This document shows positions 9,525 through 54,846 of a DNA stretch of 64,000 bases, in pieces. Each line of letters begins with the position of its first letter. Positions within the stretch are counted from its first letter, which is position 1. The stretch is from Trichothermofontia sichuanensis B231 (GTDB lineage: Bacteria; Cyanobacteriota; Cyanobacteriia; B231): assembly GCF_026240635.1 (NCBI RefSeq), contig NZ_CP110848.1, forward strand, positions 3,305,741-3,369,740, written 5' to 3'. The notes beneath the pieces are model-generated. The model ran no database searches. It had not been told where the DNA came from and worked only from the letters and a program-made list of their open reading frames with translations. The translations under genes were made by a program, and so were the position numbers.

Positions 9525-9751
9525 TATGGTCGATCCAAATAAGAACGACACGGCTCTTCTGGGGTTTTGGGGTAAACAGTATCAGCAACTACAAATAAAC
9601 GATCGCAAACGCTGAGTTTATGGTGGGAGCGCTACGCGCTCCCACCATAAACTCAGGAGAGCCAACGACACAGTTTTTGAGTCCCCTCTCCCGCGCTGGG
9701 AGAGGGGTTGGGGGTGAGGGTGCTGTTTCAGCCTAAATGGCAATGACTATA
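9525..9751. repeat. Dispersed repeat A, copy 1, interrupted by a MITE
   Basis: The outer parts match the 107 bp repeat at 19746-19852: the left end reads TATGGTCGATCCAAATAAG, and the right end ends CTAAATGGCAATGACTATA. The middle is split by the 112 bp element at 9552-9663 with an 8 bp duplication. Removing the insert and one duplication restores a repeat of about 107 bp. Confidence 0.85.
9552..9663 (+). mobile_element. MITE-like element B, copy 1
   Basis: A 112 bp element starting GGCTCTTCTGGG and ending CTCAGGAGAGCC (imperfect terminal inverted repeats). It is flanked by the perfect 8 bp duplication AACGACAC at 9544-9551 and 9664-9671. An internal hairpin at 9612-9656 has arms of 21 bases and a 3-base loop. 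It has no coding capacity. Ends of the form GGCTCTTC and 8 bp duplications are, from memory, typical of ISL3-family insertion sequences. Confidence 0.85.
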
Positions 9752-9895
9752 TGAGACTCATCTGATGGGAGAGACACAAGGGGGTGGACACAGACTTGGT
9801 TAGCTGAAAATCTTTTCCCCTCATCCCTGAATCCCTTCGCCCCTTGTGGGAGAAGGGACTTACACCGCTCATCTATCAACTCCCCTGAACCCTCA

Positions 9896-14800: not shown

Positions 14801-14907
14801 TATAGTCATTGCCATTTAGACTGAAACAGCACCCTCACCCCCAACCCCTCTCCCAAAGCGGCAGAGGGGAGTCAACAACTGTGTCGTTCTTATTTGGATT
14901 GACTATA
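14801..14907. repeat. Dispersed repeat A, copy 2 (107 bp)
   Basis: Runs from TATAGTCATTGCCATTTAGA to TTATTTGGATTGACTATA, in the opposite orientation to the copy at 19746. The ends share the inverted 8-mer TATAGTCA. The centre holds the CCCTCTCCC-type core. It lies just after the RodZ-like gene and could act as a transcript end. Confidence 0.8.
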
Positions 14908-19745: not shown

Positions 19746-19852
19746 TATAGTCAATCCAAATAAGAACGATACGGTTTTTCACTTCCCTCTCCCGCTCTGG
19801 GAGAGGGGCTGGGGGTGAGGGGGCTGTTTCAGCCTAAATGGCAATGACTATA
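19746..19852. repeat. Dispersed repeat A, copy 3 (intact, 107 bp)
   Basis: Starts TATAGTCAATCCAAATAAGA and ends AAATGGCAATGACTATA; the outer 8 bases are perfectly inverted and the next 12 or so partly. The centre has CCCTCTCCC...GGGAGAGGGG, able to form a hairpin. It lies between convergent mgtE and ndhJ. This copy defines the uninterrupted form of the element. Confidence 0.85.
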
Positions 19853-21577: not shown

Positions 21578-22044
21578 TGTGCTGGGCCTCGTTGAGTTGA
21601 CTTGCGTTACATCTTTACATTTTTACATCTTTCCTGGCATCTTCGAGCAGTGACGACCCTGAGCGGAGAGAATTTTTTGCTCAACCTGGATGACAACATC
21701 GAGTCTATGCTCGCTGGTTCACTCCCCCCCGTTCCTCTCCCTAGCTGGGCATAGAGACATGCTGATCGCAGTCGTGTTTGTAGTCATGCTTATAGATTAG
21801 TATCTATAGCATTGATTACTTTTGAGATACCGTGATCATCCTCTCCTTAACCTGAGTATTATGGTGACACGCTGCATACAGGCTGATTGACTGACAAAAC
21901 TCGAACTACCCTCACCCCCAGCCTCTCCCAGAGTGGGAGAGGGGATTGAAAAACTGTATCGCTCTTATTTGGATTGACCATAACTACAAGCGAAGATAGG
22001 AAGCGAATACAGCCTTTACCTAATTGACTCAGTACCCAGTTAAG

Positions 22045-22156
22045 GGTTCTTCTGGGATTTTGGGGTAAGCAGTATCAGCAGCTACAAATAAACGATCGCA
22101 AATGCTGAGTTTATGGTGGGGGCGCGTAGCGCCCCCACCATAAACTCAGAAGAGCC
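22045..22156 (+). mobile_element. MITE-like element B, copy 2
   Basis: 112 bp, starting GGTTCTTCTGGG and ending CTCAGAAGAGCC. Perfect 8 bp duplication CAGTTAAG at 22037-22044 and 22157-22164. Internal 45 bp hairpin at 22105-22149. Carries the palindrome GTATCAGCAGCTAC. Same orientation and length as copy 1. Confidence 0.9.
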
Positions 22157-22202
22157 CAGTTAAGGTTTGGACTTTGGTTATCTGACCAATCCTTGCCTCT
22201 TA

Positions 22203-28502: not shown

Positions 28503-28548
28503 TATAGTCATTGCAATTTAGGCTGAAACAGCACCCTCACCCCCAACC
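28503..28548. repeat. Dispersed repeat A, truncated copy 4
   Basis: Matches the TATAGTCATTGC... end and the CACCCTCACCCCCAACC part of repeat A, then diverges into a GGGTGGGCTGCACC-type sequence. About 45 bases remain. Confidence 0.65.
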
Positions 28549-45087: not shown

Positions 45088-45426
45088 ATGACGACTCACG
45101 CTAATGAACCCACCTTACGGGATATTGCCGATAAGCTTGATCGCCTGGATACGGACCTGGGTAGCCTCAAGGGGGAGGTCACCAACCTCAAGGGGGAGGT
45201 CACCAACCTCAAGGGGGAGGTCACCAACCTCAAGGGGGAGGTCACCAACCTCAAGGACAACGTTACCCACTTGCAGGAGAACTTCCTCCATTTGCAGGAG
45301 AACGTCACCCAATTCAATGACAAGTTCACAACTTACCAAAAAGCTACCCAATGGGTGGTGCAGTTGGCCTTTGCCTTGATTGCCTCGGCGACGGTGACGG
45401 TTGTGATCTCATCGGTGTTTCGTTAG
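45088..45426 (+). CDS. Coiled-coil protein with C-terminal membrane anchor
   Basis: A 112-residue protein. Residues about 10-85 are a continuous coiled coil; four perfect copies of the heptad LKGEVTN are followed by related heptads (LKDNVTH, LQENFLH, LQENVTQ). The last 25 residues form one membrane helix (VVQLAFALIASATVTVVISS). An AGGGGG ribosome site precedes ATG 45088. The layout resembles hemolysin XhlA/DUF1640-type tail-anchored proteins, but no family is certain. It lies between ntcB and the HEAT-repeat gene. Confidence 0.65.
   Translation: MTTHANEPTLRDIADKLDRLDTDLGSLKGEVTNLKGEVTNLKGEVTNLKGEVTNLKDNVTHLQENFLHLQENVTQFNDKFTTYQKATQWVVQLAFALIASATVTVVISSVFR
45166..45249 (+). repeat. Four perfect 21 bp tandem repeats inside the coiled-coil gene
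   Basis: The unit CTCAAGGGGGAGGTCACCAA(C) occurs at 45166, 45187, 45208 and 45229 with no mismatch; degenerate units continue to about 45312. One unit equals one coiled-coil heptad, so unit gain or loss stays in frame and in register. Confidence 0.95.
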
Positions 45427-50063: not shown

Positions 50064-50233
50064 GGTTCCCCTGTGGGATAGGCCGTTTGGGCCACCTGCA
50101 GGAACGGTCCTATTCCCAATTAGAAGTTGTCGGTTGGTGTCGAGTTTGCGAGACCCAACACACTGGTTAGCTGTTCTGGTTGGGTCGCACGGCGTTTGAC
50201 CGGACCTACAAGATTGAGGCAGATTCCTAGAGT

Positions 50234-50361
50234 TGGGCAGGTTTCGAGAGATTTTGGGTTTGCAGCCAAGCTTTTGGTACAACCCGCCCTTACCTGGGGA
50301 TTGGGCGGGTTTCGAGAGATTTTGGGTTTGCAGCCAAGCTTTTGGTACAACCCGCCCCTAC
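50234..50361. repeat. Two palindromic repeats D in the nrtA-nrtB gap
   Basis: Copies at about 50234-50292 and 50302-50361 share an almost identical centre (TCGAGAGATTTTGGGTTTGC onward). Each starts GGGC(A/G)GGTTT and ends AACCCGCCC(C)TA, so each can fold into a hairpin. They lie in an unusually long 389-base intra-operon gap. Confidence 0.85.
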
Positions 50362-54266: not shown

Positions 54267-54463
54267 TGCGCTAACCATTCAGGCGGGCGTCGGGGCGGTT
54301 TGCACCCAGATCCTGTAGAAGAACCGATCGTGTCGGTGAACCCACCCCCCAGGAATTGCGTATCTGATTAATTCCTGTAATGCCAATGGGTCAGGTTTAT
54401 GATGGTCATTTGGGATTAGGAATTGTTAGGGTACCTGACATCTTTGCGTGTGTTGTTAAATTC

Positions 54464-54578
54464 GGCTCTTCTGAGTTTATGGTGGGGGCGCTACGCGCCC
54501 CCACCATAAACTCAGCATTTGCGATCGTTTATTTTTTGTAGCTGCTGATACTGCTTACCCCAAAATCCCAGAAGAACC
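54464..54578 (-). mobile_element. MITE-like element B, copy 3, upstream of narB
   Basis: 115 bp in the opposite orientation to copies 1 and 2: starts GGCTCTTCTGAG and ends CCCAGAAGAACC. Perfect 8 bp duplication TTAAATTC at 54456-54463 and 54579-54586. Hairpin 54471-54515. Contains GTAGCTGCTGATAC (54538-54551), a GTAN8TAC match. Confidence 0.9.
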
Positions 54579-54590
54579 TTAAATTCTAAT

Positions 54591-54813
54591 GGGGCAGGTT
54601 TATGGAGATGGTCGTTTTAGGTCAAAAATTGTGGAAAAACCTGCCCCTACGATCGTAATATCTCTGGTAATGAGGGCAGGTTTATGATGATGGTCGTTTT
54701 AGGTCAAAAAATTATGGGAAAACCTGCCCCTACAAATTGTATATCTCTGGTGTGAGGGCAGGTTTATGATGATGGTCGTTTCGGGATCAAAATTTTGGGG
54801 AAACCTGCCCCTA
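54591..54813. repeat. Three tandem palindromic repeats C before narB
   Basis: Units at 54591-54650, 54674-54732 and 54756-54813, spaced about 82 bases. Each starts GGGCAGGTTTATG, has TGGTCGTTTTAGGTCAAAA in the middle and ends AAACCTGCCCCTA(C/T), so each can form a hairpin by its ends. The last unit ends 33 bases before the likely narB start. Confidence 0.9.
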
Positions 54814-54846
54814 TAACAATTTGAATTGCTAATTCCTTATCCTCCT

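Follow-up and report, generated by a model that had tools for sequence, protein, structure and literature searches.

The analysed stretch of DNA (hereafter the window) spans 64,000 nucleotides (positions 3305741-3369740) of the Trichothermofontia sichuanensis B231 genome, which is assembled as a single 4.44-Mb contig and 99.8% complete. It holds three copies of a MITE, whose coordinates are collected in Table 1 together with their target duplications and hairpins. A first-pass annotation had described these as a three-copy family with common ends, 21-base hairpin arms and a different perfect 8-bp duplication around each member. The copies, ends, arms and duplications were all confirmed, and the count of three is right for the window, yet not for the genome (see below). 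Equal length, likewise claimed, applies to two copies at 112 bp, whereas copy 3 reaches 115 bp through an A-run (the ACAAAAAATAAA stretch) that is longer by three A. Many genomic copies are 100% identical to copy 2, and the hairpin arms of copy 1 bear a compensated change from G-C to A-T.

Table 1. Copies of the MITE in the window, their target duplications and hairpins, and the empty site of copy 1.
Feature	Position in window	Strand	Remarks
MITE copy 1	9552..9663	+	subfamily A2-like, loop TAC
Target duplication of copy 1, left	9544..9551	.	AACGACAC
Target duplication of copy 1, right	9664..9671	.	AACGACAC
Copy 1 hairpin	9612..9656	+	
Uninterrupted paralogue of the 107-bp repeat hit by copy 1	19746..19852	+	in-window empty site
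MITE copy 2	22045..22156	+	subfamily A1, 112 bp, ends GGTTCTTCTG / CAGAAGAGCC
Target duplication of copy 2, left	22037..22044	.	CAGTTAAG
Target duplication of copy 2, right	22157..22164	.	CAGTTAAG
Copy 2 right-end hairpin	22105..22149	+	21-bp arms, 3-nt loop GTA
MITE copy 3	54464..54578	-	subfamily A1, 115 bp
Target duplication of copy 3, low-coordinate side	54456..54463	.	TTAAATTC
Target duplication of copy 3, high-coordinate side	54579..54586	.	TTAAATTC
Copy 3 hairpin	54471..54515	-	

Copy 1 is located inside an older 107-bp repeat with the ends TATAGTC/GACTATA. When the flanks of this copy are rejoined with one AACGACAC, they align without a gap to the intact repeat elsewhere in the window, and this paralogue is a direct empty site for the insertion of copy 1. 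The interrupted repeat belongs to a second, older family of ~107 bp with TATAGTC/GACTATA ends (9525-9752, 14801-14907, 19746-19852, 21922-21985 and 28503-28548), which, judging by these ends, may be an IS630-type MITE. Besides, three repeat copies at 82-bp spacing adjoin MITE copy 3 (54589-54814), with a related repeat at 50233-50361, and the ORF 45088-45426 contains tandem 21-bp coding-type units (CCTCAAGGGGGAGGTCACCAA; 45144-45311), probably a coiled-coil-like repeat.

Read in the orientation of a copy, the element starts with the tip GG(C/T)TCTTCTG, continues through a left part of ~50 bases into a hairpin (61-105) and closes with AAGAGCC or GAGAGCC. The hairpin is built of two 21-bp arms (MITE positions 61-81 and 85-105) around a 3-nt loop; its right arm is the right-end sequence, its left arm an inverted copy of the same. 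Folded as DNA, the full 112 nt reach z = -7.2, with none of 200 shuffles as good. All six frames of the 112-bp element contain stops, which rules out that a gene is read through in frame across the 120-bp insertion. Short, non-coding and multicopy, with terminal inverted repeats and target duplications, the element has the properties of a MITE and differs from REP and small dispersed repeats, which have neither target duplications nor transposase-type ends.

Genome-wide, a covariance model based on 16 distinct elements recovered at least 150 full-length relatives: every one of the 150 candidates scored, which was the upper limit, came out at E<=1e-9. An interior 20-mer matched at 119 places with up to three mismatches (59 and 60 on the two strands), while the reversed control matched at none. 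These 119 places represent the main subfamily; most copies fall into the subfamilies A1 and A2, and the A1 20-mer has 55 exact genomic matches. Subfamily B was considered as a further large family, but has only seven copies. Neither plasmids nor viral contigs yielded a MITE. Both ends were read in 99 copies, 92 of which have the exact length of 112 bp. Perfect 8/8 duplications flank 75 of the 99, every one of them different, and three more match at 7/8 positions. These numbers bear on whether we might be looking at a generic palindromic repeat (REP-like or a small dispersed repeat) without transposase-specific ends, flanked by coincidental duplications. G+C-rich apexes of the form GGCGC-NNN-GCGCC do occur in unrelated hairpins of other cyanobacteria that lack GGCTCTTC ends, which would be in line with such a repeat. 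However, the perfect, all-different duplications, the sharply conserved ends and the presence of an uninterrupted paralogue speak against it. The duplications together with the empty site refute this reading, to which we assign next to no probability, and uphold transposition, as the first-pass annotation had proposed.

No recognisable duplication surrounds 21 of the 99 copies, which otherwise look intact and are mostly A1 (e.g. L014, L043, L061, L070). Exchange between copies was rejected as the cause: there are no reciprocal flanks among these 21 and, across all copies, a single 8-mer match (L061/L025), which is probably due to chance. Adjacent deletions are a possible explanation. Hairpin-only elements of ~59 bp also exist, with a tip at each end and right end facing right end (L125, ~508-566; L117, ~459-517); they are without matching duplications.

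The 75 perfect duplications have an A+T content of 66%, with a purine at position 1 in 57 and a pyrimidine at position 8 in 56 of them. Insertions avoid genes: in rejoined sequence, 8 of 36 fall into ORFs of at least 100 aa, compared with 68% of random window positions (p = 1.6e-8).

The resemblance to the ISL3 family, originally proposed from the tip and the duplication length, is supported. The two checks that could have overturned it came out in its favour: most copies across the genome carry duplications, and the matching ends are those of ISL3 elements. Terminal inverted repeats beginning GGCTCTTC/GGCTCTCC match members of this family, and the elements with matching ends encode ISL3 transposases (Pfam PF01610, PF14690, PF13542). 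On a profile of 17 ISL3 left ends (positions 9-43, tip excluded), the MITE left ends score 21-25 bits, a value reached by none of 20,000 shuffles, and the left ends of homologous MITEs in the relative G007 (see below) give the same outcome (0/20,000). Further in, the right end of the MITE (TTTATGGTG) is similar to ISL3 right-end sequence; its match to the right-end profile is weaker (150-282 of 20,000 shuffles as good, across subfamilies), because the shared stretch extends only ~14 bases beyond the tip. The right end also scores on the left-end profile, since both ISL3 ends resemble each other. Of 39 ISL3 relatives fetched from named cyanobacterial records, three show perfect 8-bp duplications; these are autonomous elements of ~1.24 kb with the same tips (L174, CATAAGTT; L176, GTAGAGTC; L178, GTCTGGAG).

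The transposase of many cyanobacterial ISL3 elements is encoded in two frames, one for the zinc-ribbon/HTH part and another (-1) for the DDE part, with the change near codon 139 (L147, L148, L174-L180, L184). The frames meet at a run of A6-A10, for instance A_AAA_AAG or A_AAA_AAC, and elements with perfect duplications (L174, L176, L178) show split frames. Other transposases consist of a single ORF (L185, L198, L205, L146). Judged from the reading frames, this arrangement suggests programmed frameshifting or transcriptional slippage; our literature search found no published account of an A-run frameshift in ISL3.

The window contains no transposase, and the proposal that movement would be in trans gains support from the rest of the genome. 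The sole ISL3 match is one broken gene outside the window (3638852-3639560), and no intact ISL3 transposase was found in the assembled genome. This remnant begins with an ISL3-type left end (GGCTCTTCTGGGTTTTTGGTGTAAA), encodes the zinc ribbon, the HTH and about the initial third of the DDE domain, and stops at residue ~239 of about 385, at which point sits a MITE copy with the duplication TGACTTAT. Both TGACTTAT copies span the junction between ISL3 and non-ISL3 sequence, so that the gene would have been truncated before the MITE arrived. The MITE would thus still have been mobile when the remnant was dead, and the active transposase would therefore have come from another copy or from a replicon absent from the assembly. 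The left end of the remnant is similar, not identical, to that of the MITE, and its right end is lost; beyond this similar left end, no direct parent element of the MITE was found. Immediately next to the left end of this remnant lies a truncated MITE right-end hairpin (L031, 938-990), an arrangement that looks like a MITE stem interrupted by the IS.

A search of 96 genomes showed homologous MITEs in G007, with 74-78% identity over the matched element parts and 85-98% in the hairpin. The covariance model detects at least 15 of them, and those at L137, L139 and L141 have perfect duplications. The same genome encodes an intact 387-aa ISL3 transposase that is 65% identical to the N-terminal part of the remnant. 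Another genome, G088, harbours a 1247-bp ISL3 element that shares these tips, has a perfect duplication around it and is itself identical to the element of Drouetiella hepatica. Weak model matches in genomes of family f23 were discarded as unrelated hairpins without GGCTCTTC ends.

With the assembly holding no intact ISL3 transposase, the MITE might also have been mobilised by a transposase of a different family that likewise makes 8-bp duplications. We consider this improbable, as the match to ISL3 left ends reaches past the tip into the subterminal sequence and the pairing of an ISL3 gene with homologous MITEs recurs in G007. Based on its sequence, the element is very probably a non-autonomous ISL3-family MITE moved in trans. 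The copies, their duplications, the empty site, the homology of the ends and the lack of an intact ISL3 gene in the assembly are observed directly; the origin of the transposase in this ISL3 clade and the strand-transfer chemistry of insertion are inferred. Such an ISL3-family MITE would have kept the terminal 7-10 bp plus ~43 bp of the ISL3 left (transposase-promoter side) end and ~20 bp of the right end, with no gene between the ends and only the hairpin. An ISL3 transposase made elsewhere would have recognised these ends, and copies would have inserted at staggered cuts that gave rise to the 8-bp duplications. Most of the chosen sites lie outside genes, and they are rich in A+T, with a purine at position 1 and a pyrimidine at position 8. 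Two bursts (A1 and A2) would have produced the dozens of identical copies, after which the source transposase would have been lost, unless it is located outside the assembled replicon. What is left is the truncated ISL3 gene, itself host to a MITE insertion.

Arm positions of the hairpin covary: five pairs are changed on both sides, as against 1.2 in shuffles (0/500 as high) and 0-1 when the arms are slid. Copies that are identical in all other respects differ by an inversion of the 3-nt loop: in A1 (n=45), 27 read GTA and 18 TAC, and in A2 (n=29) the two orientations number 23 and 6. These numbers do not yield inversion rates, because much of the pattern could stem from a small number of ancestral flips that were then amplified. 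Relative to position 106, the loop state is homoplastic, a pattern indicative of repeated inversion or of gene conversion. Beyond the MITE, we compared perfect hairpins at orthologous sites of two closely related cyanobacteria, G184 and G218. In five of the eight that could be paired (orientation scored by hand; L270-L289), the 3-nt loop is flipped, with flanks 98.2-99.9% identical. These flips fit template switching by DNA polymerase. Assembly error at hairpins could also generate loop inversions, yet it would need to be frequent and always exact.

Template switching between inverted repeats is described to homogenise arms and invert spacers (PMC8604942), and loop inversion by this process is described in PMC8794818. 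Because loops invert at orthologous, non-moving hairpins in other cyanobacteria, we read the MITE hairpin in the same manner: its arms are probably kept matched, and its loop repeatedly inverted, by template switching during replication and not by transposition. To a broader proposal we give slightly better than even credence, namely that near-perfect cyanobacterial hairpins invert their loops near-randomly at 0.1-1.8% divergence, and that the MITE hairpin would be a self-repairing flip-flop driven by template switching, with the loop marking extrusion in vivo. Alternatively, the hairpin may be kept by selection, e.g. as an RNA element or a transposase-binding structure, rather than by template switching. 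To this we attach a tentative but appreciable likelihood: the excess of arm pairs changed on both sides, the higher identity of the hairpin than of the full element between this genome and G007 (85-98% vs 74-78%) and the ISL3 right-end sequence contained in the arms would agree with it. On the other hand, no selection is needed for template switching to homogenise arms and invert spacers (PMC8604942, PMC8794818), and loop inversion is found in non-MITE hairpins at orthologous sites as well. Between G184 (L263) and G218 (L264), one orthologous 1113-bp stretch differs solely by an inverted hairpin loop.

Here a recent, large-scale burst of MITEs would have outlived its source of transposase, which is gone from the assembled genome; this would constitute a clean instance of mobilisation in trans after which the engine disappeared. 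The copies, dozens of them identical and at well-defined insertion sites, form a natural assay of target choice, gene avoidance and loop inversion. With them, the speed at which hairpins arise and are copied wrongly can be tested directly in a living cyanobacterium.

For Microcystis, a MITE linked to ISL3 that has GGCTCTTCG ends and 8-nt repeats is already on record (PMC11448079), and the present elements are therefore a new family of a known kind. By its description, the MITE of Microcystis aeruginosa PCC 7806 shares GGCTCTTC-type, ISL3-matching ends and 8-nt direct repeats with ours, and it too has a stem-loop, is mostly intergenic and occurs in dozens of identical copies. However, it is 187 nt long as compared with 112 nt here, and its 31-33 identical copies contrast with at least 150 copies here; unlike in the Microcystis setting, no intact ISL3 is left in the present genome. 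Autonomous cyanobacterial ISL3 elements (L174 from Tychonema, L176 from Drouetiella, L178 from Microcoleus and L146 from G007) have the same tips, left subterminal sequence and 8-bp duplications, yet they span ~1.24 kb and encode a transposase, and none of those read has the right-end hairpin of the MITE. Nezha (Zhou et al. 2008, as referred to in PMC10969869) is an active cyanobacterial MITE. The repeated loop inversion between close relatives has a parallel in the hairpin 'small inversions' of chloroplasts (PMC6824564), although those cases concern plastomes and loops of 4-24 bp, whereas ours concern free-living cyanobacteria and 3-nt loops, here within a transposon. What sets the present family apart is its high copy number, the lack of a living parent, a right-end hairpin built with an ISL3-like end in inverted form, and the inversion of the loop.
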